Source of the DNA: Winogradskyella jejuensis
GTDB lineage: Bacteria > Bacteroidota > Bacteroidia > Flavobacteriales > Flavobacteriaceae
Direction: 5' to 3'
DNA length: 64,000 bases
Assembly (NCBI RefSeq): GCF_900129745.1
Contig: NZ_FQWS01000001.1
Span: forward strand, 434,001-498,000
Shown: one piece after another, positions 6,255 to 24,315 of the stretch
How positions within the stretch are numbered: the stretch's first letter is position 1
Layout of the letters: each line of letters begins with the position of its first letter
The notes under the pieces: model-generated
What the model was told of the DNA's origin: nothing
Seen by the model: only the letters and a program-made list of their open reading frames with translations
Databases searched by the model: none
Program-made: the position numbers and the translations under genes

Positions 6255-7568
6255 TTATAATTCGACATTAAGTAACTCTCCACTAATCTGAAGCACGATA
6301 ATCTCAGCCAATTTAGCATCGTACTTCGCTTGATTTTTACTTAAAACAGCATTGAGAAGATTAAGCTGCGCTTGTCTAAACTCGATTGAAGTCACTTGTC
6401 CTAATTTGAATTTCTCCTGCGTGCGTTCAAAATTGTTTTTTGCAGTTTTAATATTATCCTCTTGCACTTCGTAGATGCGCAACTTATTCTTATAGTCGTC
6501 CCAAGCATTGTTAAAGTTACGCTCGATTTCAATTTTAAGCTGTTCTTTCTGAAGTTTTTGATTTTCGAGGTTTATTCGGGCATTTTTTACTCGGGTAATT
6601 GTACCGCCACCGTCGAATAAATTCCAAGTTAGATTAATTCCAGCGGCAACATTAGTGCTTGTATTTTGCAATACAAAAGCCAAAGGGCTATTATTGTTAG
6701 ACTCATTCCAGCCATAAGTACCAGTAAGACCAATGGTTGGGAGATATCCAGATTTATTGGCCTTGAGTGTAAACTCGTTAATAGCAATATTTTTCTCGTT
6801 CTGAATTAACCTTACATTATTTGAATAGAGCTTGTTTAACAAGTCTTCTTTGTTAAGTTGAAATAGAAAATTAACTGTGGTATCGACTTCAAATTGATTT
6901 GAAATTTTATTGCCAGTAACTAGGTTTAAATCGCGTTTTAGATTAATTAAATTTTGTCTGGAGTTAATAATACTTATACTATCATTATTGATATCAACCT
7001 CGGCATTTAAAACATCTAATTTGGTGTTTTGTCCATAATCAAACTGATACTCACTTCGTGTAAGTCTATCTCTAGAGATTTCGATGGTTTCTTCAAAAGA
7101 TTTTAAATTTTCACTTTGCCGCGCTACATTATAATACACGGTGAGTAATTGAACCATCGTGTTCTCAATGGTTTCTCTCGCTTGTAGCTCAGACAAATTA
7201 TATTCTTCTTTTAATCGCTTATAATTATAGTATCTCCCTAATCCATCAAAAAGCGTGTAATTAAGGTTTATCGATGCATTGTAACGTCTTGTCTCTGCGC
7301 CTTCTGCAACTCTAGTATCACCGTTTGCCAATTGTCCTTCGGCATTCTGGCGGTCTATATTTCCACCAGCGTTTCCTGTCAACGTTGGTAAGTAACCAGA
7401 GTTTAAAATCGCTTTATTATTTTCCGCAACTTCAACATTGTTATTTGCTATTTGAATACCATAGTTGTGTTCTAAAGCCAATTGAACCGCATCCGATGGT
7501 TTTACAACTTGTTGTGCGTTAGCAAGGTTAAAAACGAGTAATAATAGTATTATTTGTAATTGTTTCAT
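6255..7568 (-). CDS. TolC-family outer membrane efflux protein
   Basis: From ATG 7568 the protein has 437 residues with a signal peptide (MKQLQIILLLLVFNLANA). An in-frame ATG 18 bp earlier would add six residues before the signal and is less likely. The body shows the duplicated alpha-helical and beta-strand pattern of TolC/OEP proteins: a helix with LALEHNYGI near the mature N-terminus, internal repeats around NLNYTLFDGLGRYYN and INLTWNLFDGGGTITR, and long coiled helices. It forms the outer membrane channel for the RND pump encoded just upstream; only 23 bp separate the two genes. Confidence 0.93.
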   Translation of the reverse strand: MKQLQIILLLLVFNLANAQQVVKPSDAVQLALEHNYGIQIANNNVEVAENNKAILNSGYLPTLTGNAGGNIDRQNAEGQLANGDTRVAEGAETRRYNASINLNYTLFDGLGRYYNYKRLKEEYNLSELQARETIENTMVQLLTVYYNVARQSENLKSFEETIEISRDRLTRSEYQFDYGQNTKLDVLNAEVDINNDSISIINSRQNLINLKRDLNLVTGNKISNQFEVDTTVNFLFQLNKEDLLNKLYSNNVRLIQNEKNIAINEFTLKANKSGYLPTIGLTGTYGWNESNNNSPLAFVLQNTSTNVAAGINLTWNLFDGGGTITRVKNARINLENQKLQKEQLKIEIERNFNNAWDDYKNKLRIYEVQEDNIKTAKNNFERTQEKFKLGQVTSIEFRQAQLNLLNAVLSKNQAKYDAKLAEIIVLQISGELLNVEL

Positions 7569-7591
7569 GTGTTTTATTCTGAACAAATCAT

Positions 7592-10500
7592 TTATACCTT
7601 TTCGTAACTAGATGCTTGTTCTATTTTGGGTATTCCTGCTTCAAAATGGCCAAGCTCTTTTTGTTCTTTTATAGCTCTTTCCACTTCTTCTTTAGTCACC
7701 TCTTGATTGGTATACAACCACTTTGCATTTAGTTTTATAAAATTTCCGAAGGCTAAAAATATTGGTAAAACGATAAGAGTCAAAACCGTTGCAAATCCTA
7801 TACCGTAAGCAATAGAAACTGCCATAGGAATTAGGAATTGCGCTTGGCGACTTTCTTCAAAAATTAAAGGCGTAAGACCGGCAACTGTTGTAATAGACGT
7901 TAGAAATATAGCTCTAAAACGCGAACGACCTGCTTCGTACAGTGCTGTATCAAAAGACATACCTTCTTTTAGGTTGGTATTGAATTTTGAAATAAGTACT
8001 AAGCCGTCATTGACCATTATCCCTATTAAGGCTATAATTCCTAAAAGTGATAATATATTAAGGGGAAAATCGTGAATCCAATGTCCCCAAGCCACCGCAG
8101 GTAAACTTAGAGGAATAATTAACAGAAGAATTAAAGGTTGACTATAGCTTCTGAACGTAAAGGCAATAACCACATAAATTAAGACTAAGATAACCAAACC
8201 AACAGGTCCCAAAGAGTTTGTTAATTTTAATCGCTCTCTGTTTTGTCCTTCGTAAGATGGTGTTACGGTTGGATATTTAGAAAGAATTTCTGGCATGACT
8301 TCATCTTTAATTTCTAACATGATATCTGCTGTGCTTGTTTTCTTAGCATCTTTTACGTCTGCAGTAACCTGAATCTCTCTCCTACCTTCTAAATGATTTA
8401 TAGCAACGTCGCCACGCTCTATGGTATAATCAGCAATTTCCCTTAACGGAATACGATTGCCTTGAGGCGTTACAATGCGCATATCATCGAGATTATTTAT
8501 AGAAGACCTACTCTCTCTATTATATCTAACCCATACTCTTATCTCGTCTTGACCTCTTTGGAAGCGTTGCGCCTGAGCACCAAAAAAAGCAGCTCTTACT
8601 TGGCTCATTACGGTTCTTAAATCCAAGCCTAATGCATAAGCACTTTCCTTCAATTTTAATCGTATTTCTTTAATACCTGCTGGGTCGTTGTCCGCTACGT
8701 CTTTGAGTAATGCATTATTCTCTAGGTAATCTTTAAGTTCTTTTTTTACTGCTTTTAAGTCGGCTATATTATTACCCAAAAGTGAAACAGATACTGGATT
8801 ACCACCAAAATTTCCGCCGCCACCATAGACCAAACTTTCCACTCCTAAAACTGGACCTACACGCTCGCGTAGTCTGTTAGTCACTAGTTGTGTTGTAATT
8901 TCGTTAGGACGCTCTTCACCAGGTAATAAATTGATTTCTAAACGTGCCGTAGAAGAGCCAGGACCAATTGTCTTTATCATGTTCTCTACCAAGTACTTTT
9001 CAGAATCTGCTCCAAGATACTCGTCATTAATTTCCTTTGTCACTTCTATTGCCTTCTCTTCGATAAATGAAATAATGCTATCTGTTACGTTTTCGTTGGT
9101 TCCGTTCGGCATGTTTAAATCTACAGCCACCCTATCACTTGCTATTTGAGGAAAAAATGAAACTCTAATAATTCCACCACCGATACTAGAAAACGTGAGT
9201 ATCATAAAAACCACAAAAAAGGAGAAGGTCAAGAACTTGTACTTAAGCGAGAATCTAAGACAAGGACTGTAAAGGTTATCCCTTAGCCAGTTCATTATTC
9301 GTTCACCAAACGTGTTAATATAACGTAACTTTGAAAATGCACGTTGAAAAAATCCAGCAATACCAGTTTTTTCCTTTTTACTTTCTGCACGCAAGGCTTT
9401 AGAGTGTGCTAAATGTGCCGGTAAAATAATTAATGCTTCAACTAAAGACACCACCAATGTTAAAATAACAACCACAGAAACCTCTCCGAAGAATTCCCCT
9501 ATTCGCCCATCGAGGAATAGAAATATACCAAATGCTAAAACTGTAGTTAGGATTGCAGAAATTATAGCTGGTAGCACTTCCATTACACCATCTATTGCAG
9601 CTTGCTCTGGCGACTTTCCCTTCTCGTAGTGTTGATATATATTTTCGGCAATAACAATGCCATCATCTACCAAAATACCAATAACGATTATCATCCCAAA
9701 GAGCGATAATACATTGATGGTTACATTAAAATAACCTGCAAACATAAACATTCCCAAGAATGCTATAGGTAATCCAAAAGCCACCCAAAATGCCAGCCTG
9801 GTATTTAAGAATAAGGACAGAAATATGAGTACTAAAATAATCCCTGCAACTGCGTTTTCCGCTAGAAGTTGTGTACGCTGAACTAATGTCGTTGATAAAT
9901 CTCTTACCACATTAAGTTGTACATTTTCGTACTTCTGATTAAACTCTTCGATATAGGCTTTGGTCTTATCTGCTGAAGAAATTAAATCTTCGGAATTGGT
10001 ACTTGTAATAGTTACAGATATAGACAGATTATTATCGTAAAAATTAGCGTTTGGCGTTTCCGAAAATTGGTCTCTAACGTTTGCTATATCTTTCAGCTGA
10101 ATTTTACGACCAGATGGGTCTGATTTTACAATGAGGTTAGATAATTCGTCTGCATAATACGAGCGGTTGTTAGCTCTTATTAAATATTCTTCAGCGTCTG
10201 TTTTTATAGTTCCGCCTGTGGTTATAAGACTAGCCTGATTAACCGCTTGTGCTACTTCCGTAAACGTTAGATTATAAGCTAGTAAACTATTCTCGTCTAC
10301 AGCAATTTCTATTTCTTCTTGTGGGTAGCCCGAAATTGAAATTTGAGATATGCCATCTATACCTCTTAAATCATTTTCGACCTGTCTTCCTATTTGTTTT
10401 AAGGTCGCTAGAGGAATGTTACTACCGCTAATAGCAAAGGTAATTGTAGGTCTTAAATTTTCTTGCTTAGCAACGATTAAGGGTTCCATTCCAACAGGAA

Positions 10501-10855
10501 ATGATGGTACACGGTCAACCGCATTTTTCACCTCTAGAAGCATAAAATCGATATCTCTTCCTTTTTCGATTTCTACATTTATCGTTCCGCTATTTTCTCT
10601 AGACGTTGAAGTGACACGCTCAACACCATTAAGCCCTTTCAGGTTGTCTTCTATTTTAAGCACTATACCTTCTTCGACTTCTTGTGGAGAAGCACCTGGA
10701 TAGGTCACATTAATACTTATGTTTTTAGAATCGACTAATGGAAAAAAAGAGGATTTAAGTTTTGAAGCTCCAAAAATTCCGAATATCAAAAAAGCAAAAA
10801 TCACCACATTTACGGCGACGCTGTGCTTAATAAAATATGTTATCAGCTGTCTCAT
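7592..10855 (-). CDS. RND efflux transporter permease (AcrB/MdtB-type)
   Basis: A 1087-residue inner-membrane proton-driven pump. It has the two-fold RND layout: a first span followed by a large periplasmic loop (from about residue 35), spans 2-6 around residues 335-480, a second periplasmic loop, and spans 8-12 around residues 880-1030. The proton-relay pair in TM4 is present in GILVDDGIVIAENIY; the TM10 counterpart reads GIMVNDGLVLISK, with Asn-Asp rather than the Lys of AcrB. The middle gene of adaptor-pump-channel, 3 bp after the adaptor. Substrate cannot be told from sequence; drugs, bile-like compounds or lipids are all possible. Confidence 0.94.
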   Translation of the reverse strand: MRQLITYFIKHSVAVNVVIFAFLIFGIFGASKLKSSFFPLVDSKNISINVTYPGASPQEVEEGIVLKIEDNLKGLNGVERVTSTSRENSGTINVEIEKGRDIDFMLLEVKNAVDRVPSFPVGMEPLIVAKQENLRPTITFAISGSNIPLATLKQIGRQVENDLRGIDGISQISISGYPQEEIEIAVDENSLLAYNLTFTEVAQAVNQASLITTGGTIKTDAEEYLIRANNRSYYADELSNLIVKSDPSGRKIQLKDIANVRDQFSETPNANFYDNNLSISVTITSTNSEDLISSADKTKAYIEEFNQKYENVQLNVVRDLSTTLVQRTQLLAENAVAGIILVLIFLSLFLNTRLAFWVAFGLPIAFLGMFMFAGYFNVTINVLSLFGMIIVIGILVDDGIVIAENIYQHYEKGKSPEQAAIDGVMEVLPAIISAILTTVLAFGIFLFLDGRIGEFFGEVSVVVILTLVVSLVEALIILPAHLAHSKALRAESKKEKTGIAGFFQRAFSKLRYINTFGERIMNWLRDNLYSPCLRFSLKYKFLTFSFFVVFMILTFSSIGGGIIRVSFFPQIASDRVAVDLNMPNGTNENVTDSIISFIEEKAIEVTKEINDEYLGADSEKYLVENMIKTIGPGSSTARLEINLLPGEERPNEITTQLVTNRLRERVGPVLGVESLVYGGGGNFGGNPVSVSLLGNNIADLKAVKKELKDYLENNALLKDVADNDPAGIKEIRLKLKESAYALGLDLRTVMSQVRAAFFGAQAQRFQRGQDEIRVWVRYNRESRSSINNLDDMRIVTPQGNRIPLREIADYTIERGDVAINHLEGRREIQVTADVKDAKKTSTADIMLEIKDEVMPEILSKYPTVTPSYEGQNRERLKLTNSLGPVGLVILVLIYVVIAFTFRSYSQPLILLLIIPLSLPAVAWGHWIHDFPLNILSLLGIIALIGIMVNDGLVLISKFNTNLKEGMSFDTALYEAGRSRFRAIFLTSITTVAGLTPLIFEESRQAQFLIPMAVSIAYGIGFATVLTLIVLPIFLAFGNFIKLNAKWLYTNQEVTKEEVERAIKEQKELGHFEAGIPKIEQASSYEKV

Positions 10856-10858
10856 TCG

Positions 10859-12007
10859 TTAGTTTTCTGAAGATGCGTTAGTTGAAGCACTTTCAGTAGT
10901 AGTTTTATATGGTTTTACAGACATACCCGCGTATGCCCCAGGAACAGGCTTAGACAATATCACTGTTCCGTTAGGCACATCTTTTAGTACTGCTTTTGTA
11001 TCCGAAAAATAGACAGGATTGACATCAATGATATCTAAAATACTATCTCTAACAACAAAAATTCTATTACCATCTAGCACTAGACTTCTGCTTACCTCAA
11101 TAGCATTAGCTTCGGACTTCGCATTTAGATTTGCCTCTAAATACATACCTTCTTTTAGGTCGTTACTTTTTACCTCGATATAGGCATTAATCGTTTGTGT
11201 TGTGGCATCAATACTTCCATTTACTCTAGAGACTTTTCCGGTGAAAGTTTCTGTTTTTTCAAGATTATTCAAAGCAACAGTTTCTCCAACCTTTAATAGA
11301 TTGGCATAGCTCTTACCTAGTGCAACTTCCATTTCGTAAACCGTTGGGTCTATATATTCTCCTAGTTTTTGTCCGTTTCTAATTAATGAGCCTTCAGTAA
11401 CTAAAGCCTCTGTTAATATTCCTGAAAATGGTGCACGAATGTTGAATTTTGATAACCGTTGTTCTAAATTTTTAACCGTGTAGTAATTAGTAACAATACC
11501 TCGACCTGTAATAAAATAGTTTTCCTTTTCTGAAGTCATTTCAGGAAGCTTAGGTGTGGTTTTATCTAAATTAAACCCGTTGAGATAGTTTTGCCATTTA
11601 GGAAAAACCTCAGGAAAATCAAGCCTTAAATCTGGCATTATAGCCGCAATAGAATTATACAACACACTCTTTGCAGACTGTACGCTAGCATAATACTCTG
11701 TAGCATCTACTTTTATTAGCGTTTGTCCTTGTTTGTATTCTTGACCAGGTCGAAATAATTTTCCTGTTGATCTAAAAACACCTTGAACTTCGGAATATAG
11801 TTCTACACGTCTTTTAGCTACCAAATTACCATTAGTTGATATAATAATTGGAACCGTGCTATTGACTACTGTATCTGTAAAAACTGTTTTTACAACTTTA
11901 GCCGGAACTGGCCTTTGTTTCTTTTTGCTATTAGCAATTTCTTTTCCAATAAAAATGGCACCTATAATAAGAACTACGCCCAAGACGGAAAGGATAATAT
12001 TACGCAT
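10859..12007 (-). CDS. RND efflux periplasmic adaptor (membrane fusion protein)
   Basis: A 382-residue adaptor with an N-terminal membrane anchor (about residues 4-24). It has the split lipoyl/barrel-sandwich halves (YSEVQGVFRS...GQTLIKVDATEYY and FNIRAPFSGILTE) separated by a helical hairpin with an unusually Pro- and Lys-rich insert, then beta-barrel and membrane-proximal domains. It links the RND pump and TolC channel encoded downstream and is the first gene of that operon. A -7-like box TAAATTTG lies on the minus strand at 12034-12027, 20 bp before the ATG; no well-spaced -33 element was found. Confidence 0.92.
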   Translation of the reverse strand: MRNIILSVLGVVLIIGAIFIGKEIANSKKKQRPVPAKVVKTVFTDTVVNSTVPIIISTNGNLVAKRRVELYSEVQGVFRSTGKLFRPGQEYKQGQTLIKVDATEYYASVQSAKSVLYNSIAAIMPDLRLDFPEVFPKWQNYLNGFNLDKTTPKLPEMTSEKENYFITGRGIVTNYYTVKNLEQRLSKFNIRAPFSGILTEALVTEGSLIRNGQKLGEYIDPTVYEMEVALGKSYANLLKVGETVALNNLEKTETFTGKVSRVNGSIDATTQTINAYIEVKSNDLKEGMYLEANLNAKSEANAIEVSRSLVLDGNRIFVVRDSILDIIDVNPVYFSDTKAVLKDVPNGTVILSKPVPGAYAGMSVKPYKTTTESASTNASSEN

Positions 12008-12068
12008 TCGATGGTTATTTAGGTCACAAATTTACCTATAACCAAAGGTGGGCTTCGTTAAAATAATC

Positions 12069-13988
12069 TTAATTGTTAAAATTGAGTGTATCTATTGACT
12101 CTTGTACGTTCTCCCAATCTTCCATAAGTTGGTCCAAGTCTTTCTTTTTAGATTGATATGCATCAAAGAAATCAGGATTAGCAGCTGTTTCGTCATAATT
12201 TGTAGCTAATGCCAAATCGTCTTCTTTTATCGCTTTTTCCAAGGCATTAATTTTAGACTCGATATTACTCAACTTGTTGTTTAAAGATTTTAGCTTCTTT
12301 TGCTCTTCGTAACTCTGCTTGTTGTCTTTTACTTTTTCAGCTTTAGCAACTACGGTTCGCTTTTCCGCTTCGCGGAGATTTTGCAAATTACGTTGTTCTA
12401 GATAGTAATCAATATCTCCTAAATACTGCTTTATTTTCTGGTCTTTAAACTCGTAAATTGTTTGGGTTAATCCTTGCAAAAAATCTCTATCGTGAGATAC
12501 TAAAATTAATGTCCCTTCAAACTTTTTCAAAGCGTCTTTTAAAACGTTTTTCGATTTGATGTCTAAGTGGTTTGTTGGCTCATCCATAATGAGGACATTC
12601 AACGGCTGTAATAATAATTTGGCTAAGGCCAATCGGTTTCGTTCGCCACCAGAAAGCACACGAACATATTTATCTACCTCTTCGCCTCGAAACAAAAACG
12701 AACCCAAGATATCTCTTACCTTGGAACGATTTGTCTCGTTTGCAGCATCAATCATCGTATCTAAAACGGTTTTACTTCCGTCTAAATATTCAGCTTGATT
12801 TTGGGCAAAATAGCCTATTTGCACATTGTGCCCCAAAGTAAGTTTCCCACTATGCTCAATTTCGCCAACAATAATTTTAGCCAACGTAGATTTACCTTGA
12901 CCATTCTGACCGACGAAAGCTGTTTTAGTATCTCTTGGGATGCTTAAACTTACATTATGAAGCACTTGTAAATCGCCATAATGTTTAGATACATTTTCGA
13001 CCTCAACCACTACCTTTCCAGGAACAACAGAGACTGGAAAATTAAGCGTCATTACCGCATTGTCCTCCTCATCGACCTCAATACGGTCCATACGCTCTAA
13101 CTTCTTAATTAAAGATTGTGCCATTGTTGCTTTAGAGGCTTTAGCACGGAATTTTTCTATAAGCTTCTCGGTTTGCTGAATTTGCTTTTCTTGATTCTTT
13201 TGCGTGGCTAATTGCTGTTCTTTTATTTCTTTTCTAAGCTCTAAAAACTTTGTGTATGGCTTATTATAATCGTAAATACGCCCCAATGAAATTTCAATGG
13301 TACGATTAGTCACATTATCTAAAAACATCTTATCGTGCGACACAATAACGACCGCTCCTGGATAGTTTTTTAAAAAATTCTCTAACCAAATAATAGACTC
13401 AATATCTAAATGGTTTGTAGGCTCATCTAACAATAACAAATCGTTATTTTGAAGGAGAAGTTTTGCCAACTCAATTCGCATACGCCAACCACCAGAAAAG
13501 GTATCGGTAAGTTTATCAAAATCTTCGCGCTTAAAGCCAAGACCTTGCAAAATCTTTTCGGTTTCGCCTTGATAATTGTAACCTCCTAAAATTTCGTATT
13601 GATGCTGAATCTCGTTTAAATCAATCATCAACTGATTATACGATTCGCTTTCATAATCTGTGCGTTCTGCTAATTGGGTGTTTATAGTTTCGAGTTGATT
13701 TTCTAGCGCTTTAATTTCTTTAAAAGCTTCGTAAGATTCTTCAAGTACCGTTTTTCCGAAATCGAAATCAATATCTTGCTTAAGAAATCCAATTTTTAAA
13801 TCTTTATCAGCAGCTATTTGCCCCGTATCTGCTTCCTGCTCTTTAGACAAAATTCTAAGCATGGTTGATTTCCCAGCTCCATTTTTTCCTATAAGTCCTA
13901 TGCGGTCTCCATTTCCTAGTTTAAATGTGATATCTTCAAAAAGGTATTCGCCTTGAAAAGAAATAGAGAGATTATGAATATTGAGCAT
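12069..13988 (-). CDS. ABC-F family ATPase (Uup/YbiT-like)
   Basis: A 639-residue soluble protein with two fused ABC ATPase domains and no membrane spans. Domain 1 has Walker A GKNGAGKST (residue 36 on) and signature SGGWRMR; domain 2 has Walker A GQNGQGKST and signature LSGGERNR, with a basic linker helix between them (about residues 240-310, Lys/Gln-rich) and a C-terminal coiled coil rich in Lys and Glu (about 540-635). ABC-F proteins act on the ribosome as translation factors or confer antibiotic protection. Nothing here marks it as a resistance-type member; a housekeeping role is more likely. Confidence 0.92.
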   Translation of the reverse strand: MLNIHNLSISFQGEYLFEDITFKLGNGDRIGLIGKNGAGKSTMLRILSKEQEADTGQIAADKDLKIGFLKQDIDFDFGKTVLEESYEAFKEIKALENQLETINTQLAERTDYESESYNQLMIDLNEIQHQYEILGGYNYQGETEKILQGLGFKREDFDKLTDTFSGGWRMRIELAKLLLQNNDLLLLDEPTNHLDIESIIWLENFLKNYPGAVVIVSHDKMFLDNVTNRTIEISLGRIYDYNKPYTKFLELRKEIKEQQLATQKNQEKQIQQTEKLIEKFRAKASKATMAQSLIKKLERMDRIEVDEEDNAVMTLNFPVSVVPGKVVVEVENVSKHYGDLQVLHNVSLSIPRDTKTAFVGQNGQGKSTLAKIIVGEIEHSGKLTLGHNVQIGYFAQNQAEYLDGSKTVLDTMIDAANETNRSKVRDILGSFLFRGEEVDKYVRVLSGGERNRLALAKLLLQPLNVLIMDEPTNHLDIKSKNVLKDALKKFEGTLILVSHDRDFLQGLTQTIYEFKDQKIKQYLGDIDYYLEQRNLQNLREAEKRTVVAKAEKVKDNKQSYEEQKKLKSLNNKLSNIESKINALEKAIKEDDLALATNYDETAANPDFFDAYQSKKKDLDQLMEDWENVQESIDTLNFNN

Positions 13989-14054
13989 AAATTTTGAATA
14001 TATCTAGATAACAATAAACGTTACAATTGTTACAGTACCATACCTGCTAAAAAT

Positions 14055-15658: not shown

Positions 15659-16558
15659 TTAATAATTCCACATGTCTTGTTCGAAATTTCGAATCTTATC
15701 TTTAATACGTTGAGATTCCATAAGTTGCATTAGCGCATTGTCCTTAATGTAATCTTTAACTTCACGATCGCCATATACGTTTTCTTCTTTGTACATATAT
15801 CCGTTAAATCGTCTTGAATTTAAGATATGATCAAACGATATTGGCATAGCACTATTTTTATTATTGAATGCTTTGGCCTCATGTAATATACCTCTGGCTT
15901 CAGGATAAAATACCCAAAATAATGGTACAGGCTCATTATTAGCCTCATCATCAGAATCAATATAATTAATGTCTGGTGCTGCAGGGCCAATAGCTAATAA
16001 ACGATATTTCATTTCGCCTTGACGCTTATCAAAATACCATAATCCCTTCATGAGATAGGCCTTGATATCGTATGCTTCAATATCACGTTTTGTAATATAC
16101 TCTGGGTCTACATATCCATCTGCATTGAATTGATCAAAACCAATATCTAAGGTATCTATTTTTTGCATTGACTGTCTTAGCTCTTCATAAGTACGCTCTT
16201 GAGAGAAGTAAGAATCTGCATATACTTTAGGAATATCTCCAGACTTTACTGCATTCCATAATACATGAAATAACGATCGACGATCTGGACCAATATTATT
16301 GGTGTCTACTGGATAATAAAGCGGAAAGTTAACACGCTCATCTAAAACCACTTTTTCCCAAGTCATTTTAGAATATAAACGGTCTCTATCGTCTACATAT
16401 CCATACTCTAAAGGTTCGTCATTATCTAAAAGCAACTGCTCTTCAGTTTTGACACCTATTTCTTCAGGAATCTTAGCATTAAGGATGTTTGCTTGTGCAA
16501 ATACTCCACTGAACGAAAGTACTCCTAGAGTTGTTAATAATAATTGCTTTAATTTCAT
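15659..16558 (-). CDS. gldN: Type IX secretion / gliding motility protein GldN
   Basis: A 299-residue periplasmic protein with a signal peptide (MKLKQLLLTTLGVLSFSGVFAQ). Family landmarks include DDRDRLYSKMTWEKVVLDERVNFPLYYP near residue 55 and LFHVLWNAVKSGDI near residue 95. GldN (PorN) forms rings with the lipoprotein GldK at the outer membrane in the type IX secretion system, needed for gliding and export of CTD proteins. It is the last gene of gldK-gldL-gldM-gldN, 58 bp after gldM, and is followed by a strong terminator. Confidence 0.95.
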   Translation of the reverse strand: MKLKQLLLTTLGVLSFSGVFAQANILNAKIPEEIGVKTEEQLLLDNDEPLEYGYVDDRDRLYSKMTWEKVVLDERVNFPLYYPVDTNNIGPDRRSLFHVLWNAVKSGDIPKVYADSYFSQERTYEELRQSMQKIDTLDIGFDQFNADGYVDPEYITKRDIEAYDIKAYLMKGLWYFDKRQGEMKYRLLAIGPAAPDINYIDSDDEANNEPVPLFWVFYPEARGILHEAKAFNNKNSAMPISFDHILNSRRFNGYMYKEENVYGDREVKDYIKDNALMQLMESQRIKDKIRNFEQDMWNY

Positions 16559-16616
16559 GTGTATTAGTTTTAAACGTTTGAGGCTAATTTTAAAACGTAT
16601 ATAGCGTCAATATATT

Positions 16617-18191
16617 TTAGTTTGCTAACTCAATAACAACTGGTGTTACAGTCTTAATACGTATTGGGTTATTTGGTGCTTTCGCTTTGATATTAATAAA
16701 TTGAACGATATCACCTCTTCTTGCTGAACGTAATGCATTTTTAGCAGCAGAATTAAGTCTGTTACCTGTACAATTTACAGATGGCTTACCAGGTACTTTC
16801 ATAGTAAATGAAACTACGTTTAATGGTAAACTAAAATCGAAATCGTCACCAAAGTCAGCAGAAATTTTACCTATCTCTACATTATTTCTTGGCAATTTAG
16901 CATTACCTACTTGACCGTTAAATGACCCAATAGGCTTTGGTAAATCTTTAATCCTAAATACTTTACTGTCTGTCGCTGTAGAACCGTCATCAAGAGTACC
17001 AGTTACATTAATCTTAACTTCTCTACCTGATTGAGGCTTCATAACATATTTTCCGCCAGAACCAGAAAGACCAGGAGCAGATGCTCTTACTTTATTATCT
17101 GGAACACCAGCAAAAGAAATAGTCATTGGATTTGACACACCACGGTATACCACATTCATTTTATCTGCAGAAATTGTTGCAGAGTTTGGTCTTGGTACAA
17201 CTACGTAGTTAGCATCGATGATAGGAATTTCTAATTCTTCTCCATTCTCTAAGAACGTAAACTTACCCTCAATTTTGTGCTCTCCAACGTTACCAACATT
17301 AAAGTCTAAACGAGCAGCACCTGTGGAGTCAATTACTTTAGATACATCATACTTCTTACCATTTACCTCGAGAGCTGTTGGTGGTACATTGGCATATTTA
17401 CCAATTACTACTCTACCTTGGAACTTCTCTCCTGCAAAGAAAGCTGATTTGTCAGCTAATACAATAGCCTTGTACTTATCTAAAGATGTAGCTTCAACAG
17501 CTGCATTTCCTAAGAATAAGTTATTTAAATCTGCTTGAGTTACTTTAACATCATTTTGCATCGCTGTAAGCTTAGTGTAAGATGCAATAGAAGGGAATCC
17601 CTTGAAATGGTAGTCTAACCATTTTTTAGTTACACCTTCACTATCTTTCACCTCAGATATATCAAACTTTTTTTCAAAATTTTCAATAAACTTTGTGTAA
17701 TATTGGTCTACTCCTAAGATATCTTTTATTTCTTTTTTGTATTGCTCAATAGCAGCAATAACTTTGTCTCCTTCTTTAGTTAGACGATCGCCTGTAAACC
17801 ACTTCTCGTCAAGTTTATCACCTTTTTTCATTTTCTCAAAAGGTAATCTTCCTGTTGTTTCGTCAGCTTCGTAACCGCCCATTCTTAGAATATCATTTTT
17901 CTGAGCTTCAATGAATTTGTAAAACTTGTCAGAAGCAATACTCACTTGCTGAGCCTTGTTTGAAGCTGCTGCAAATTCTTTTGGGTTTTCTTTTCCTTTA
18001 GTTTCTAAATTAGCTAGTAATTTAGCATTCATGTCTGTTGTAACCTCGTTAGCTTTCTCAAACTTTTCTTCCATCAACCCAAAGGCTGATAAAACTTCTG
18101 GAGCTACCGTCATTGCCATAATAGCAATAAACACGAGGTACATTAAATTAATCATTTTCTGCCTTGCAGATATTTTACCTGATCCTGCCAT
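16617..18191 (-). CDS. gldM: Type IX secretion / gliding motor protein GldM
   Basis: A 524-residue protein with a short cytoplasmic start (MAGSGKISARQKM), one membrane span at about residues 14-34 and a large periplasmic region. This matches GldM (PorM), whose periplasmic domains D1-D4 reach across to the GldKN rings while its single span joins the GldL spans to form the proton-driven motor. The conserved ISARQKMINLMYLVFIAIMA start is present. It follows gldL by 42 bp. Confidence 0.96.
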   Translation of the reverse strand: MAGSGKISARQKMINLMYLVFIAIMAMTVAPEVLSAFGLMEEKFEKANEVTTDMNAKLLANLETKGKENPKEFAAASNKAQQVSIASDKFYKFIEAQKNDILRMGGYEADETTGRLPFEKMKKGDKLDEKWFTGDRLTKEGDKVIAAIEQYKKEIKDILGVDQYYTKFIENFEKKFDISEVKDSEGVTKKWLDYHFKGFPSIASYTKLTAMQNDVKVTQADLNNLFLGNAAVEATSLDKYKAIVLADKSAFFAGEKFQGRVVIGKYANVPPTALEVNGKKYDVSKVIDSTGAARLDFNVGNVGEHKIEGKFTFLENGEELEIPIIDANYVVVPRPNSATISADKMNVVYRGVSNPMTISFAGVPDNKVRASAPGLSGSGGKYVMKPQSGREVKINVTGTLDDGSTATDSKVFRIKDLPKPIGSFNGQVGNAKLPRNNVEIGKISADFGDDFDFSLPLNVVSFTMKVPGKPSVNCTGNRLNSAAKNALRSARRGDIVQFINIKAKAPNNPIRIKTVTPVVIELAN

Positions 18192-18233: not shown

Positions 18234-18866
18234 TTAGTTCTTGTTCATTGCAGAAAGCATACCTCCATACACACCATTTAATGATGATAAGTTAGATGCT
18301 AATGATTGCATTTGTTCTTTAAGCTTAGTTGCATTCTCTACAGCTTCTTCGTTGATTGCTGCTTGACGGTTTGCACTTTCCATTTGTACTTTATACAAAC
18401 TGTTTAAAGATTCCATTTGTGCTGCAGCTAAAGACATTTCTTCGCTGTATTTTTTCTGAGCTTGCATAGAATCTACAGTTGGGTTAAGGTTTTTTGCCGC
18501 ACCTTCGAAGTTCTTAATACTATCGCCTAAGCTTGCCATTAACTCACCGTCAATTTTAGCTTCTTTTAATAAGTTATCTAACTTCTTAGATAATAATCCT
18601 TCAGCATCTTTAGGGTCTTCTTTAGCTTTTTTAGCTTTTGCAGCTCCACCTTCTAACTCAGGATATACAAGAGACCAATCTAAATCGTCTTCTTGTCTTT
18701 CAAAGGCTGACCAAGCAAATACTAGTGCTTCTACAACCATACCAATTGTTAGTAAAAGACCTCCATAAGGCCAGTTTTGAATTTTAAATAGTGCTCCAAC
18801 GATTACTACTGCAGCTCCCATTCCATATACAAAGTTTGTTAACGTACGTTTTCCTTTTTGTGCCAT
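18234..18866 (-). CDS. gldL: Type IX secretion / gliding motor protein GldL
   Basis: From ATG 18866 the protein has 210 residues; an in-frame ATG-like start 30 bp earlier falls in the leader. It has two membrane spans near the N-terminus (about residues 11-29 and 35-55) joined by a short loop NWPYGG, and a long cytoplasmic helical tail (from about residue 60). A buried Glu in span 2 (MVVEALVF, about residue 46) fits the proton-carrying glutamate of the GldLM motor. It lies between gldK and gldM in the standard order. Confidence 0.95.
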   Translation of the reverse strand: MAQKGKRTLTNFVYGMGAAVVIVGALFKIQNWPYGGLLLTIGMVVEALVFAWSAFERQEDDLDWSLVYPELEGGAAKAKKAKEDPKDAEGLLSKKLDNLLKEAKIDGELMASLGDSIKNFEGAAKNLNPTVDSMQAQKKYSEEMSLAAAQMESLNSLYKVQMESANRQAAINEEAVENATKLKEQMQSLASNLSSLNGVYGGMLSAMNKN

Positions 18867-18941
18867 AATTTTAAGTTTTAAATTTAGTTGAGTCAAAGCA
18901 TGCTCAACAAGTAGGTTATTGTTTTAGTTTATAGTTTTCTT

Positions 18942-20294
18942 TTAGTTATTCTTTGCATTCTTAGTTACTTCTGTACCCATGTAATCTTGTACAGTTCTGA
19001 AACCAATGTAACTTCTTGCTGAGTCAGCATATTCGTAATCTCTAGAACTTACCTGTAAATAGTAAGCAACATCTTTCCAAGAACCACCACGAACAACTTT
19101 ACGTTGGTTGTTCTTATCATTTACACTTGGGTTAATGCTAGACATAAACTCATATGATGACGTAGAATATGAACTGTTTACCCATTCTGACACATTACCT
19201 GCCATGTTATAAAGGTTAAAGTCATTAGGCTCAAAAGCATCCGCTTCAACAGTATACAATGCTTGGTCTGCTGCATAGTCTCCTCTAAGTGGCTTAAAGT
19301 TAGCCATGAAACATCCTCTATCATTTAAAGTATAGTTATTACCCCAAGGAAATGTTGCGCCTTGTAATCCACCGCGAGCAGCATATTCCCACTCCGCTTC
19401 ATTTGGTAATCTGTATACGTTAACAGGTTGTCTCTTTTTAGTTTTTTGATATTTGTTATGGTAGATTGTTCTCCACTGACAAAATGCTTTTGCTTGATCC
19501 CAAGACACTCCGACTACAGGATAATCTCCGTAAGCATCATGCCAAAAATAATCGTTGTGCATTGGCTCGTTGTAAGAATAAGCAAAATCACGAATCCAAA
19601 CCGTAGTATCTGGATATACCATTATCTCTTTTTGCTCAATAACGTCTGAACGCTTTAGAGAGGGATCTTTGGCAGCCGCTTGAATATCCATCTCTGAATA
19701 TTTGAATATGAATTGAGACACATCCCAAGAACGCTGACCATTATATGACTCCTCCAAAGGTAAGTACATGCCATCCATTACTTCTGCATACAATTCGTCT
19801 GGATAATCTTCGGTATCAAGATACAAATCTATATCCTCATTAAGCTCGCGTTGGTCGTTACCATAAGTATTAATCATATACTTTTGATATGGATTAAGGT
19901 TAGCAGTGTCTGCATCTTTGTATGCAAATTCTCCTATGTCACCATTTCCTGGAACTTTACCTTCAAGATCAGCCATTTCAGCAAGTTTCTCTCTGATAAT
20001 TTTGTTTCTGACGTCCTCAACAAACTGTCTATACTCACTATTAGTGATTTCAGTTTCATCCATATAGAATGCTCTTACAGTAGCTGTTTTAGTAGGCGCA
20101 TCTTGCATACCTGCTAAATCGTCATCAGACTTACCCATAATAAATGCGCCTCCTGGAATTAGGGTCATTCCGTAGGGCTTTTCAGGGTGCCATCGTTTAC
20201 CTTTTACGCCGACAACTTGTCCGCGGTCTCCAGAGTTACAGCTTACCATAAAAGCTAACACTGTGATTAGTAAAACAAGCTTATTAATTTTCAT
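18942..20294 (-). CDS. gldK: Type IX secretion / gliding lipoprotein GldK
   Basis: From ATG 20294 the protein has 450 residues and a lipoprotein signal ending FMVSC (Cys about residue 19); a longer start at 20342 would put extra residues ahead of this signal. The rest is a formylglycine-generating-enzyme/sulfatase-modifying fold: IPGGAFIMGKSDDD early, YRLPNEAEWEYAARGG near residue 300, NVSEWVNS, VVRGGSW and IGFRTV at the end, as in GldK/PorK. It lacks a catalytic role in the known family and forms the outer-membrane ring with GldN. First gene of gldKLMN; a pair of 12-bp direct repeats lies upstream. Confidence 0.95.
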   Translation of the reverse strand: MKINKLVLLITVLAFMVSCNSGDRGQVVGVKGKRWHPEKPYGMTLIPGGAFIMGKSDDDLAGMQDAPTKTATVRAFYMDETEITNSEYRQFVEDVRNKIIREKLAEMADLEGKVPGNGDIGEFAYKDADTANLNPYQKYMINTYGNDQRELNEDIDLYLDTEDYPDELYAEVMDGMYLPLEESYNGQRSWDVSQFIFKYSEMDIQAAAKDPSLKRSDVIEQKEIMVYPDTTVWIRDFAYSYNEPMHNDYFWHDAYGDYPVVGVSWDQAKAFCQWRTIYHNKYQKTKKRQPVNVYRLPNEAEWEYAARGGLQGATFPWGNNYTLNDRGCFMANFKPLRGDYAADQALYTVEADAFEPNDFNLYNMAGNVSEWVNSSYSTSSYEFMSSINPSVNDKNNQRKVVRGGSWKDVAYYLQVSSRDYEYADSARSYIGFRTVQDYMGTEVTKNAKNN

Positions 20295-20383
20295 AAAACT
20301 ATAGGTTAAATTAGTGTCCTTAAATTTTGAGTTCGTAAACATATTTCAATTAATCGGAAAAAACAACTTTTTTCCAATTTTTT

Positions 20384-20416
20384 TTGCATTTCATCCTTAT
20401 AAAATTGCATTTCATC
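20384..20416 (-). promoter_or_regulatory. Two 12-bp direct repeats, 21-bp period, upstream of gldK
   Basis: On the minus strand GATGAAATGCAA occurs at 20416-20405 and again at 20395-20384, a spacing of exactly two helical turns, 90-122 bp before the gldK ATG and within the 159-bp gap after the formimidoylglutamase-like gene. Same-face direct repeats of this size are typical of response-regulator sites. Which protein binds is unknown. Confidence 0.5.
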
Positions 20417-20453: not shown

Positions 20454-21620
20454 TTAGAAGTTATTCTTCCTGTAGGCTTTATACCATCTTTCTGGTATTT
20501 TCCCTGAGGTAGCAGCTTTGTAATCCTCATGCGCGCATGGTAATAACGTGTGCTTTTTTAATTTATTATTAAGATTTGTTAAAAAAGGGATTTCTATCCA
20601 CCAACGTCCAGTCTTTATACTTTTGAAGAAAATTAATTCGTCCTCGTCGATGAGAACATTATATTTTTGGTAGATATTTGGATTTGTGAAGTCATCATCT
20701 TTTACACGACAATTAACACCTTCTACAAAATACCAAATCATCTGTGCAACTAACATCGCTGTAATGGTATCTTTTGGTGCATAATGGTATTCGTATATAC
20801 CAAAGGAGGATACTTTATTACTTATACCTGCATAACGTGTAATGGCGCAAATTTCTTTACCATCTAAACCATTGGGTGTAAACTTTAGGCGCTCCCCTAC
20901 TTCTGCAGCTCTAACTGATTTTAAATCTACAGTTACTATATGAGCATCACGCATTACAGGCTCAACACTATTAATATTATTTGAAATTTCACCCAACCTA
21001 TAAGCTTCAAAATACAAACGCTCCATGAGGTCTATCTCGTCTTGGGAATTGAAATAGGTCTGGTATCCAATTGTTGAGTAGTTAAACAAATTATAAGGTT
21101 CGTCTAATACTATCTTACCAACATAACTATTATTCTTGATTGGTAAATTAGTATCACCCAAATCGAAATTGGTGTCTACATTAACAATGTTAACCATTGG
21201 TTGTAGATTGTCATAAGCTCTATAATTGGCATAAGTCAAATCTTGACTCCCTCCTAATATAATAGGTATGATTTTTTTTTCGACAAGAAGTTCTACTGTA
21301 GTACGTAACGCAAAATAACTATCCTCTACAGATTCTCCGGGTTCAATATCTCCTAAATCTGCTATGGTTGTATGCCAGTTTCCAGGATAAAGGCTATAAA
21401 AGGTTTTTCGGATGTCATCAAAATTGAGTTCTGCACCTATATAATTGATGTCATTCCTGTTTTCTTTAACTCCAATGATGGCCATTTGCACATCATCGAT
21501 ATCTGGCATGCCGTGTTGTTCGGAATGTATTTTTAATTTTCTACCTAGTGTTTGTTGAGATAATAATTCGTTGTGGGCTAATACTGAATCTGAAACTGGT
21601 GATAGAAAATTAAAGTTCAT
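20454..21620 (-). CDS. Formimidoylglutamase-like (arginase-fold) protein with lost metal ligands
   Basis: A 388-residue protein of the ureohydrolase fold, of the kind annotated as formimidoylglutamase beside gldK in Flavobacteriaceae. The family's metal motifs are recognisable but altered: GGxH is GGSQ (Gln126), DxHxD is DTNFD (Asn151) and SxDxD is VDLK (Lys234), so three of the six expected manganese ligands are gone. About 60 extra residues at the C-terminus follow the fold. Loss of ligands argues against hydrolysis of formimidoylglutamate; no other hut gene is in the window. It lies 6 bp after topA and 159 bp before gldK, so a role tied to secretion or a non-catalytic binding role is conceivable. 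Confidence 0.8.
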   Translation of the reverse strand: MNFNFLSPVSDSVLAHNELLSQQTLGRKLKIHSEQHGMPDIDDVQMAIIGVKENRNDINYIGAELNFDDIRKTFYSLYPGNWHTTIADLGDIEPGESVEDSYFALRTTVELLVEKKIIPIILGGSQDLTYANYRAYDNLQPMVNIVNVDTNFDLGDTNLPIKNNSYVGKIVLDEPYNLFNYSTIGYQTYFNSQDEIDLMERLYFEAYRLGEISNNINSVEPVMRDAHIVTVDLKSVRAAEVGERLKFTPNGLDGKEICAITRYAGISNKVSSFGIYEYHYAPKDTITAMLVAQMIWYFVEGVNCRVKDDDFTNPNIYQKYNVLIDEDELIFFKSIKTGRWWIEIPFLTNLNNKLKKHTLLPCAHEDYKAATSGKIPERWYKAYRKNNF

Positions 21621-21626
21621 TTAGTG

Positions 21627-24137
21627 CTACTTTTTTGCTGCAGGTTTCTTTTTGGTTGTTTTCTTTTTTGTTGCTTTTTTCTTGGGTGCGTTCTTTTCTA
21701 GAATTGCTTGTGCTTCTTCGAGCGTCATATCTGTAACATCATGCGTTTTTGGCAATTCTACTTTTTGCTTACCTTTAATTACATGGTGTCTACCCCATCT
21801 TGCTTTTTCAACTCTTATGCCTTCTTCTTCCCAAACATGAATAAGCTTATCCTTTTCTTTCTGGATTTTATCTTCAATCAAAGTAACGATATCCTCTTCA
21901 GATAAATTATCCCAATCATATTTTTTATTAACATTAATAAACATATTGTTCCACTTTATGAATGGCCCAAAACGTCCTTTTCCTTTTTGCACATCTAATC
22001 CTTGATAAGTATATATAGGTGCATCTGCTTTTTCTTTCTCCTTAATATATATTAAGGCTTGCTCATAATCTACACTTAGAGGATCAACACCTTTTGGTAA
22101 GGAAACAAATTTCTTCCCAAAACGCACATAAGGACCATAACGTCCGTTATTAACTTCAACTTCTTCTTCATTATAATGACCTAAGGACTTTGGAAGCTTA
22201 AATAAATCCATAGCTTCCTCATAAGTAATAGAACTTAATTGTTGGTCTGGTGATAGACTAGCAAATTTTGGTTTTTCTTCTTCATCTACAGTACCAATCT
22301 GAACCATTGGTCCAAATTTACCCAAACGCACACTCACTTGCCTACCACTTTCTGGGTCAACACCTAAAACTCGTTCACCAGATTCGCGCTCAGCATTTTC
22401 TTGCACATCTTCTACTTGCGGATGAAAGCCTTTGTAAAAGTCTTTCATCATAGCACGCCAGTCTTCTTTACCTTCTGCTATGTCATCAAAACTTTCTTCA
22501 ACTTTTGCTGTGAAATTATAATCGAGAATGCTTTCAAAATGATTAACTAAGAAATCAGTAACAATCATTCCTATATCTGTTGGCACTAATTTTCCTTTAT
22601 CAGAACCTACTTTTTCTGTCAGCTGTTTTTCGTTAATTGATTGATTTTCTAAAACCAATTGCGTGTAGTTACGCTCAGTACCATCTACAGTCCCTTTTTC
22701 TATGTAGTTTCTATTCTGAATAGTAGAAATTGTTGGCGCGTAAGTCGAAGGACGACCAATACCTAATTCTTCTAACTTTTTTACCAAAGCTGCTTCAGTA
22801 AATCGTGCTGGCGGTCTTGTGAAGCGTTCTGTAGCAGTAATATAGATATTATCTAAATTGTCAGACACTTTTAAATCTGGCAACAATCCTGATTGTTCTG
22901 TATCTTCATCATCCGTTCCTTCTAAGTATACCTTTAGGAAACCATCAAATGTGATGATTTCTCCATTGGCTGTAAATAATTCGCTTACAGGTTCCGAAGC
23001 ATTTACTTTAATTTTTACATTGGTACGCTCCAATTTTGCTTCACTCATTTGAGATGCGATAGCGCGCTTCCAAATTAAATCGTACAATCTAGCCTGATCA
23101 CGCTCCGCACTAACCGAGTGGCTCGCAAAATTTGTTGGTCTTATAGCTTCGTGAGCTTCTTGAGCACCTTTACTTTTACCTTTGTAATTCCGTGGCTTAC
23201 TATATGACTCTCCATAAGCAGCTATAATCTCATTTTGAGCACCTTGCTTAGCTTCATCAGATAGATTAACGCTATCTGTTCTCATATAAGTAATAAGACC
23301 TGCTTCGTATAAACGCTGAGCATTACTCATCGTACGACTTACAGAAAAGCCTAATTTACGAGACGCCTCTTGCTGTAATGTTGAAGTTGTAAAAGGCGGT
23401 GCTGGTGATTTTTTTACTGGCTTCTTTTCCAGATTAGCAACTTCGTATGACGCTGCAATATTTTTATTCAAGAAGGCTTGAGCCTCTTCTTTAGTTTCAA
23501 AGTTCTTAGGTAATTTCGCCTTAAATGCAGAACCGTCTGCCGTCTTAAACTCAGCGTCTACTCTATAAGATGCTTCAGGATCAAATTTCTGAATTTCTCG
23601 CTCACGCTCAACAATTAAACGTACTGAAACGGATTGTACACGTCCTGCAGATAAGCCACCTTTTACTTTGCGCCATAGCACTGGTGATAATTCATAACCA
23701 ACAATTCTATCAAGCACACGTCTTGCTTGTTGCGCATCTACTAAATTATAATCTATACTACGTGGATTCTCAATAGCCTTTTGGATGGCACTCTTTGTAA
23801 TTTCATGAAAAACAATTCGCTTGGTTTTTTCAATATCCAAGTCTAATGTTTCTGCTAAATGCCATGCAATAGCCTCTCCTTCTCGATCCTCATCACTAGC
23901 TAGCCAAACCGTTTCTGCTTTCTTAGCTAAATCCTTAAGCTTCTTTACAACATCTTTTTTGTCTTTAGAAACCTGATATTTAGGTTTAAAGTCTCCATCA
24001 ACATCAACACCTAGTTCCTTCGATGGTAAATCGGCAATGTGTCCAAAACTAGATTCGACCTTATAGTCTTTTCCTAGAAATTTTTCTATGGTTTTTGCTT
24101 TTGCAGGTGACTCAACTATGACTAAATTCTTCGGCAT
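21627..24137 (-). CDS. topA: DNA topoisomerase I (type IA)
   Basis: From ATG 24137 (MPKNLVIVESPAKAKT) the protein has 836 residues; an upstream ATG at 24290 would add 51 residues of unrelated sequence. TOPRIM motifs are visible (VESPAKAKT and LASDEDREGEAIAWHL), as is the active-site Tyr region GLITYMRTDS. In place of the E. coli zinc fingers the C-terminal third carries topoisomerase C-terminal repeats with GRYGPYVRFG and GRFGPFIKW, then a Lys-rich tail (KKKATKKKTTKKK). It relaxes negative supercoils. A promoter-like pair is seen upstream at 24158-24185. Confidence 0.95.
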   Translation of the reverse strand: MPKNLVIVESPAKAKTIEKFLGKDYKVESSFGHIADLPSKELGVDVDGDFKPKYQVSKDKKDVVKKLKDLAKKAETVWLASDEDREGEAIAWHLAETLDLDIEKTKRIVFHEITKSAIQKAIENPRSIDYNLVDAQQARRVLDRIVGYELSPVLWRKVKGGLSAGRVQSVSVRLIVEREREIQKFDPEASYRVDAEFKTADGSAFKAKLPKNFETKEEAQAFLNKNIAASYEVANLEKKPVKKSPAPPFTTSTLQQEASRKLGFSVSRTMSNAQRLYEAGLITYMRTDSVNLSDEAKQGAQNEIIAAYGESYSKPRNYKGKSKGAQEAHEAIRPTNFASHSVSAERDQARLYDLIWKRAIASQMSEAKLERTNVKIKVNASEPVSELFTANGEIITFDGFLKVYLEGTDDEDTEQSGLLPDLKVSDNLDNIYITATERFTRPPARFTEAALVKKLEELGIGRPSTYAPTISTIQNRNYIEKGTVDGTERNYTQLVLENQSINEKQLTEKVGSDKGKLVPTDIGMIVTDFLVNHFESILDYNFTAKVEESFDDIAEGKEDWRAMMKDFYKGFHPQVEDVQENAERESGERVLGVDPESGRQVSVRLGKFGPMVQIGTVDEEEKPKFASLSPDQQLSSITYEEAMDLFKLPKSLGHYNEEEVEVNNGRYGPYVRFGKKFVSLPKGVDPLSVDYEQALIYIKEKEKADAPIYTYQGLDVQKGKGRFGPFIKWNNMFINVNKKYDWDNLSEEDIVTLIEDKIQKEKDKLIHVWEEEGIRVEKARWGRHHVIKGKQKVELPKTHDVTDMTLEEAQAILEKNAPKKKATKKKTTKKKPAAKK

Positions 24138-24157
24138 TATTCTTTTTTTTGAGGGTA

Positions 24158-24185
24158 CAAATGTATACCAAAAAAAATATACAAA
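24158..24185 (-). promoter_or_regulatory. Promoter-like pair for topA
   Basis: On the minus strand TTTG (24185-24182) and TACATTTG (24165-24158) are 16 bp apart, close to the Bacteroidota TTTG/TAnnTTTG pattern, 20 bp before the chosen topA ATG. This supports the shorter topA start. Confidence 0.55.
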
Positions 24186-24282
24186 CCTAATATTCCCATA
24201 ATTCATCTTGTTTTTAAGACATTTTAACGCGACTAAAAACAATCGATTATTAAAAGAATTATACACAAATTGATACTGCCAC

Positions 24283-24315
24283 TTTGTCATAAGACTAAAA
24301 ATAATTCTATCTTTG
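24283..24315 (+). promoter_or_regulatory. Promoter for miaB
   Basis: TTTG at 24283-24286 and TATCTTTG at 24308-24315 with a 21-bp spacer fit the Bacteroidota sigma-70-type promoter; the miaB ATG is 58 bp downstream. Confidence 0.65.

Follow-up and report, generated by a model that had tools for sequence, protein, structure and literature searches.

Gene X and its surroundings in the window

The DNA analyzed here, a 64,000-nucleotide stretch of Winogradskyella jejuensis (the window; contig C4 of a 3.03-Mb genome), carries, on the reverse strand and in this order, topA, a gene that we call X, and the gldK, gldL, gldM and gldN genes of the type IX secretion system (T9SS). Gene X (20454-21620, from the ATG start to the stop codon) encodes a pseudo-ureohydrolase of 388 amino acids, and topA, for DNA topoisomerase I (21627-24290; TIGR01051, 723.8 bits against a cut-off of 456.4), lies 6 bp upstream of it. 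Downstream comes gldK, whose frame has its first ATG 111 bp past X, for the T9SS ring lipoprotein (18942-20342; TIGR03525, 575.4 bits against a cut-off of 350), followed by the genes for the motor proteins GldL (18234-18896, an open reading frame with a TTG start; TIGR03513, 225.4 bits) and GldM (16617-18191; TIGR03517, 418.3 bits) and for the ring subunit GldN (15659-16606, a stop-to-stop frame; TIGR03523, 267.9 bits), the last three also scoring above their cut-offs. The placement of X between topA and gldK, proposed in a first-pass annotation of this DNA, is thus borne out by the open reading frames and by the profile scores of its neighbors.

The closest named relatives of X are Winogradskyella proteins with 78% identity. 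In the three closest relative pairs, dN/dS is 0.056, 0.08 and 0.059, so that X, which is under purifying selection, does not look like a decaying gene; of all 1711 pairs, 139 have a dS below 1.5, and their median is 0.27.

The gap between X and gldK contains a direct repeat, GAAATGCA-N13-GAAATGCA (20385-20413, reverse strand), which is the single match in the genome to the pattern GAAATGCA-N10-15-GAAATGCA. With one site only, a regulon element is ruled out, and the repeat is a possible candidate for a local operator of gldK; at least two copies of AAATGCA within 260 bp past X were found in 4 of 78 named relatives. The pattern TTG-N17-23-TAnnTTTG, which we take to be the Bacteroidota-type promoter, occurs in 4 of 78 X-gldK gaps (shuffles: mean 1.24, maximum 5), and a scan for sigma-70-type promoters before gldK returned 20 against a mean of 16.4, which is near background.

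A ureohydrolase fold with an additional C-terminal domain

X matches the Pfam Arginase family with 48.9 bits (cut-off 22). Its AlphaFold model (pLDDT 89, pTM 0.91), built from 59 rows, namely, the window and 58 named loci titled nearly all as Flavobacteriaceae, is most similar to the formiminoglutamase of Trypanosoma cruzi (2a0m, Z 33.8, and 4mxr, Z 33.7; 277 residues and an rmsd of 2.3 each), with 17% identity over the 277 residues aligned with 2a0m. Further matches are the formimidoylglutamase of Bacillus subtilis (3m1r, Z 32.0) and the metformin hydrolase subunits (Z 30-31), metformin hydrolase ranking first in the Foldseek search. A Pfam score above the cut-off combined with the same fold places X in the ureohydrolase superfamily, in agreement with the arginase-type fold assigned to it at the outset.

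The ureohydrolase-fold domain, delimited by VIA alignment with 2a0m, spans residues 20-306 (20703-21563, reverse strand), and the arginase-fold matches listed end at about residue 306-311. Beyond that point lies a domain specific to, and conserved within, the X family (approximately residues 306-388; 20457-20705, reverse strand), which consists of four strands and two helices and includes W340 and C362. Predicted alone, residues 300-388 reach a pLDDT of 73; they yielded no Foldseek match below E 1 (best 1.1) and a best VIA Z of 3.5, which does not prove a new fold, and a search of the genome for a second copy of the domain returned only a match with E 0.16. Of 296 genomes searched across the phylum, 134 matched X. 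Because, outside the class, none of the matches listed reaches beyond X residue 322, and those that we read are enzyme-like, the C-terminal domain looks confined to the class on the present sample.

Degradation of the metal site across the family

In arginase numbering, as we take it, His101, Asp124, Asp128 and Asp232 bind the A metal, whereas Asp124, His126, Asp232 and Asp234 bind the B metal. The equivalents in X are Q126, D149, D153 and D232 for the A metal and D149, N151, D232 and K234 for the B metal, and the columns of Q126, D149-T-N151-F-D153 and D232-L-K234 match, in the alignment, GGEH/GGDN, DAHSD/DAHHD and SVDMD of agmatinase and formimidoylglutamase of known structure. Three of the six ligands are therefore replaced, at precisely the residues given in the first-pass annotation: Q126 (21243-21245, reverse strand; His in 18 of 20 enzyme-like relatives), N151 (21168-21170, reverse strand; His in 20 of 20) and K234 (20919-20921, reverse strand; Asp in 20 of 20). 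The change from GGxH to GGSQ, listed there as one of the three lesions, is real in that Q126 is present but weak as evidence when taken alone: true formimidoylglutamases carry Asn at this position, namely, 3m1r and the T. cruzi enzyme, whose wild type has Asn there because 4myn is titled 'N114H variant'.

We compiled a family set of 64 X members (the window and 63 others) and an alignment, A3, of 59 rows, both including the window. Among the 64 members, residue 149 is D in 59 and S in 5, residue 153 is D in 55, S in 5 and N in 4, and residue 232 is D in 58, N in 5 and G in 1, with Asp at all three positions in 55. Residue 126 is Q in 40, H in 17, N in 6 and D in 1; residue 151 takes nine forms (K24, R14, L7, I5, Q4, N3, H3, F3, T1), Lys or Arg accounting for 38 members, and residue 234 takes twelve (N17, S10, G9, R5, A5, D5, K4, T4, Q2, H1, Y1, C1). 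The three substitutions are, accordingly, not fixed across the sampled family, a point that the first-pass annotation had proposed to survey. Conversely, the full six-ligand set, named beforehand as the counter-case to a dead enzyme, occurs in 0 of the 64 members and 0 of the 59 A3 rows; H151 and D234 are never found together (0/64), and 16 members have an intact A-site set of H126, D149, D153 and D232. The position of Glu277, by which we mean the catalytic or substrate-binding Glu, is E in 23 members, including the window, N in 22, G in 17, D in 1 and S in 1. D149, D153 and D232 have been lost in five members of family f2 (families, genomes and loci are given by our working labels), and the GGxx segment is missing from the alignment in two f5 members. 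The 20 enzyme-like relatives, some of them from X-bearing genomes, read HDHDDD in 17 cases, with Asn at 126 in 2 and Asn at 153 in 1, and all 20 keep Glu277 along with H151 and D234. From these ligand counts, compared with those of the enzyme-like relatives, we judge the B-metal site to be destroyed across the whole sampled X family and the A-site Asp cluster to be mostly retained. The binuclear metal site of catalytic ureohydrolases, characterized by H or N, D-x-H-x-D and D-x-D, is found complete in 17 of the 20 enzyme-like relatives and not in X, which, by the superfamily fold combined with family-wide ligand loss, is a pseudo-ureohydrolase and would presumably function without catalysis.

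One family, conserved outside the metal site

In a maximum-likelihood tree, 19 X rows, all with broken ligand sets, are split from 20 enzyme-like rows by a 100/100 branch, and the X family is one separate group, a clade provided that the tree is rooted within the enzymes; the tree does not include the most divergent f5 members, and the genome's agmatinase, the HutG-like paralog L002 and the f5 member L067 have long end branches. A 26-row alignment (A1) contains 21 invariant columns, including R55, R71, Y75, D88, Q187, F204, E220, P221, R224, G251, W296, W340 and C362, many of which map outside the metal site.

In the diverged f5 family, Q187, G251, W296 and W340 are kept in 5 of 5 members, E220-P221-R224 and C362 in 4 of 5, and F204, G274 and others are lost in some. 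The eight invariants located before residue 130 are kept to varying extents (5 in L067, 4 in L070, 2 in L071, 1 in L069 and 0 in L068). The diverged X genes of L068 (5996-6829) and L069 (5954-6784) encode proteins of about 278 amino acids that have the C-terminal domain and lack the N-terminal catalytic segment; both genes adjoin murF, near gldJ and a porP-type gene.

Relationship to formimidoylglutamase

An ordinary formimidoylglutamase, HutG, is what database matches would call X, given that TIGR01227 (hutG) is its best NCBIfam match and formiminoglutamases are its nearest solved structures. However, the score of 60.7 bits is far below the equivalog cut-off of 229.15, the ligand set is broken, and the only HutH match in the genome (612.5 bits) is on contig C9, so that X is not beside hutH. 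The remark in the first-pass annotation that there is no other hut gene here holds for hutH within the window but not for the genome. The genome has two other PF00491 genes: one, for an agmatinase, shares the contig with X at a distance of about 112 kb, and the other, HutG-like, is on a different contig (L002, 1465-2520). The latter has all six ligands, although its substrate is also uncertain because it reaches 78 bits to TIGR01227, again below the cut-off of 229. Failing on score, ligands and gene context, X is extremely unlikely to be an ordinary HutG, despite sharing with HutG enzymes (TIGR01227; 3m1r, 2a0m, 4mxr, 1xfk) the fold over residues 20-306, and its additional C-terminal domain sets it further apart. 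In Mariniflexile litorale, a formiminoglutamase is reported as the sole enzyme of histidine degradation (PMC11278836); this protein may be a homolog of X.

Gene order in relatives

Of 80 named loci, 78 have X flanked by topA and gldK, and the remaining two stop at a contig edge; the same placement is seen in all 30 genomes sampled from the window's own family (29 loci, L005-L033, and the window). Across the class, among the matches listed, X precedes gldM by 2.1-5.1 kb, without exception on one strand with it, in 40 of 68 genomes and is unlinked in 28. We read 17 loci chosen from the 40 gldM-linked ones, outside the window's family: X-porP-gldK-gldL-gldM-gldN is present in 17 of 17, topA precedes X in 16, and miaB lies beyond in 12. 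Because loci from other families of the class share X-porP-gldKLMN, mostly with topA, the topA-X-porP-gldKLMN arrangement is old. By the same token, given that 16 of the 17 clusters from other families carry topA, the closeness of X to gldK is not independent of its closeness to topA. In 60 of 78 named loci, topA and X overlap or are at most 9 bp apart, and in the 78 the gldK frame has its first ATG 79-699 bp past X, so that X looks to be transcribed with topA.

Elsewhere the arrangement is looser. In family f2, topA is near X and gldK is absent in 5 of 5 loci; conversely, L044 and L176 hold X-porP-gldKLM(N) with topA absent; and in f3, f4, f8 and f9 neither topA nor gldK was found near X within the stretches read (about 13 kb each). 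In f5, X resides in a murF-gldJ neighborhood in 3 of 5 genomes, two of these with a porP-type gene; these neighbors were named by profile model in L068 (GldJ, 410 bits, below the cut-off of 458) and by similarity in the other two.

In L184 (genome G002; 6677-11600), the T9SS cluster is rearranged, with gldL-gldM on one strand and gldN and gldK on the opposite strand. In L161 (G443; 7401-14000), GldK/PorK is at the end of a 2885-aa open frame, in 2200 aa of which Pfam detects an FGE-sulfatase domain only; this may be a fusion or an assembly effect.

Co-occurrence of X with GldJ and GldM in the Bacteroidia sample

Co-occurrence was assessed, with counts by eye, in 278 genomes with completeness of at least 90% and contamination of at most 5%, out of 325 drawn from Bacteroidia; GldM was scored as present at E up to 0.001, and GldJ at a best E of at most 1e-30. 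X is present in 264 of the 278. X and GldM agree in 267 genomes (261 genomes with both, 3 with X only, 8 with GldM only and 6 without either), and X and GldJ in 272 (both in 262, X alone in 2, GldJ alone in 4, neither in 10), with Fisher p values of 4e-7 and 1e-13, which ignore descent, and phi of 0.52 and 0.76, respectively. The 10 genomes lacking both X and GldJ come from five families (f11, f98, f107 and two small genomes), so the counts of joint loss, uncorrected for descent, boil down to a few clades.

The X model found no match in the sampled genomes of f11 (5), f98 (2), f107 (1) and f10 (2), of which those of f11, f98 and f107 are also without GldJ. In one genome each from f107, f98 and f11, GldM scores 481-690 bits to 7cmg against 120-134 to 6ys8 and is thus PorM-like; we take these two structures to be the proteins of Porphyromonas gingivalis and Flavobacterium johnsoniae, respectively. 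X as a strict core part of the T9SS is therefore rejected, being missing from 8 of 269 GldM-bearing good genomes, including the PorM-type f11, f98 and f107. Evidence against a strict dependence of X on the T9SS comes, in turn, from one genome, G517 (99% complete), in which X is intact, with all 21 invariant residues (L160, 6243-7433), and matches to GldM, GldB, GldD and, at the level required, GldJ are missing; its X neighbors match those of the sister genome G002, which has X and GldM and no GldJ-level match.

GldJ is present and X was not found in G311, G408, G190 and G249, although in G408, a fragmented f94 genome, X may have been missed, two sister genomes matching X at only about 1e-17. 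Genomes with a short GldJ (about 1e-33 to 1e-46) were counted as GldJ-bearing on weak scores, GldK itself reaching 1e-33 in G249; in G049, G166, G190 and G249, the short GldJ is a second locus separate from gldK. The X model returned no match on the cluster stretches of G492, G388, G311, G443, G332 and G349, of which G332 and G349 have X elsewhere. A hidden X in f10 was sought in the genes of about 240 aa adjoining gldJ in L154 and L155, which match neither the X model nor the f5 model and, by motif, resemble what we take to be ComF-type phosphoribosyltransferases.

A panel of 45 genomes was selected for conflicting presence of X and GldM, a choice that favors GldJ; in it, GldJ differs from X in 5 and GldM in 11. 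The 14 X-less genomes of this panel include 12 with a GldB match and 7 with a GldD match, which rules out the notion that X follows the whole gliding set. On this sample, then, the spread of X parallels that of GldJ but not that of the complete gliding set.

Discussion

Here, we describe a family of ureohydrolase-fold proteins that is nearly class-wide in Bacteroidia, has lost part of the metal site throughout the sample, bears a domain of its own and, in many genomes, is encoded in the gene cluster of a secretion motor. Pseudo-ureohydrolases are a known kind of protein, of which, to our knowledge, few have been described so far; a family with this spread, an added domain and a place in a motor gene cluster is new. 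The arginase-like protein of Trypanosoma brucei (4rhm) likewise has the ureohydrolase fold without a Mn cluster, with ligand positions replaced, and the title of its structure, an S149D/R151H/S153D/S226D mutant, indicates that the natural protein has Arg where one of the His ligands would be, at what we take to be the position of X residue 151, where the family so often has Lys or Arg. By contrast, the titled Asp ligands of the T. brucei protein became Ser, whereas X keeps three Asp in 55 of 64 members; we know of no role for that protein and of no genomic link between it and a motor. A text search of the literature, mostly outside the subscription journals and liable to miss a passing mention, returned nothing pointing to X or to a gliding or secretion mutant of X; among locus tags, Fjoh_1854 is named in two papers, and the search found none for Fjoh_1852 or Fjoh_1851.

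The first-pass annotation had suggested a structural or regulatory role in gliding and type IX secretion. The family-wide degradation of the active site and the topA-X-gldK order in 78 of 80 loci bear out part of its reading; the role itself is suggestive at most: plausible, not proven. Our favored reading, held tentatively and with somewhat less than even confidence, is that X is a cytoplasmic, protein-binding pseudo-ureohydrolase that serves the gliding-type, that is, GldJ-bearing, T9SS. Under this scenario, a fold of the formimidoylglutamase/agmatinase type would have lost its binuclear metal site long ago and been retained as a protein-binding module, the working parts of which would probably be Q187, E220-P221-R224 and W296, in the C-terminal half of the fold, together with W340 and C362 of the C-terminal domain, rather than the old pocket. 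We infer that the conserved residues form one surface and that this surface would bind a partner protein, perhaps a component of the motor. X is probably cytoplasmic, as judged by hydropathy, because it has no hydrophobic N-terminus (the best 19-residue mean among windows starting in the first 22 residues is 0.47), and it would therefore act on the inner side, perhaps by helping to assemble, stabilize or control the GldLM motor.

GldJ and GldK are envelope lipoproteins. GldJ therefore differs from X, for which hydropathy indicates no signal sequence, although the two have a similar spread, which GldB and GldD do not share. The C-terminus of GldJ has been reported to set motor direction, and an effect on GldLM was suggested (PMC12239597); a further factor that co-occurs with GldJ is of interest for this reason. 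There is a real, though less than even, chance that X is an overlooked cytoplasmic component or regulator of the gliding-type T9SS on the GldLM side, an enzyme fold minus the metals plus a tail domain, masked until now by its likeness to formimidoylglutamase; such a component would mark the gliding (GldJ) type of T9SS as opposed to that of P. gingivalis.

Several observations weigh against a role in the T9SS: the tight spacing to topA, the 28 of 68 genomes in which X is unlinked to gldM, genome G517, the f2, f3, f4, f8 and f9 loci, and the distribution of GldB and GldD. A different reading, almost as likely as the gliding-T9SS one and, in our estimate, a real possibility short of an even chance, is that X, still a pseudo-ureohydrolase, has a housekeeping or regulatory task in the topA transcription unit, such as that of a metabolite sensor or an adaptor, and that its nearness to gldK reflects an inherited block. 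A gap of at most 9 bp to topA in 60 of 78 loci, compared with at least 79 bp to gldK, the f2 loci that combine topA and X without gldK, the retention of X in G517 without T9SS markers and its presence in nearly the whole class all speak for a topA unit. Yet X was not found in the f11, f98, f107 and f10 genomes, which presumably have topA and, in the first three families, are without GldJ too; L044 and L176 keep X next to porP and gldKLM(N) where topA is absent; and the f3, f4, f8 and f9 stretches that we read contain no topA near X.

Two further readings retain a link to catalysis. X might be an enzyme still, re-tuned to bind just one metal where the A metal used to sit (H/Q126, D149, D153 and D232) or to work with a metal-free pocket, to which the Asp triad of 55 members and the complete A site of 16 would lend themselves; we consider this improbable, seeing that H151 and D234 never co-occur, that Lys or Arg occupies residue 151 in 38 of 64 members, that the Glu277 position is split among E, N and G as opposed to E in every enzyme-like relative, and that some f2 and f5 members have dispensed with D149, D153 and D232 or with the GGxx segment. 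More remote is an analogy with metformin hydrolase (MetCaCb/MfmAB), to which X is structurally akin and in which one subunit without a metal cluster, with MetCb as the precedent, binds its active cognate (PMC11271267). It is very unlikely that X is such a non-catalytic subunit activating a ureohydrolase, because, unlike that pair, X has no ureohydrolase gene next to it, the agmatinase gene and the HutG-like gene being distant, and bears an extra domain of its own.

Whichever role holds, a 'formimidoylglutamase' label on X would mislead pathway reconstructions. Should X belong functionally with topA, a gene conserved across almost the entire class would still be without an assigned function. 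If it serves the gliding motor, as we tentatively prefer, a cytoplasmic factor of that machine would have been missed.
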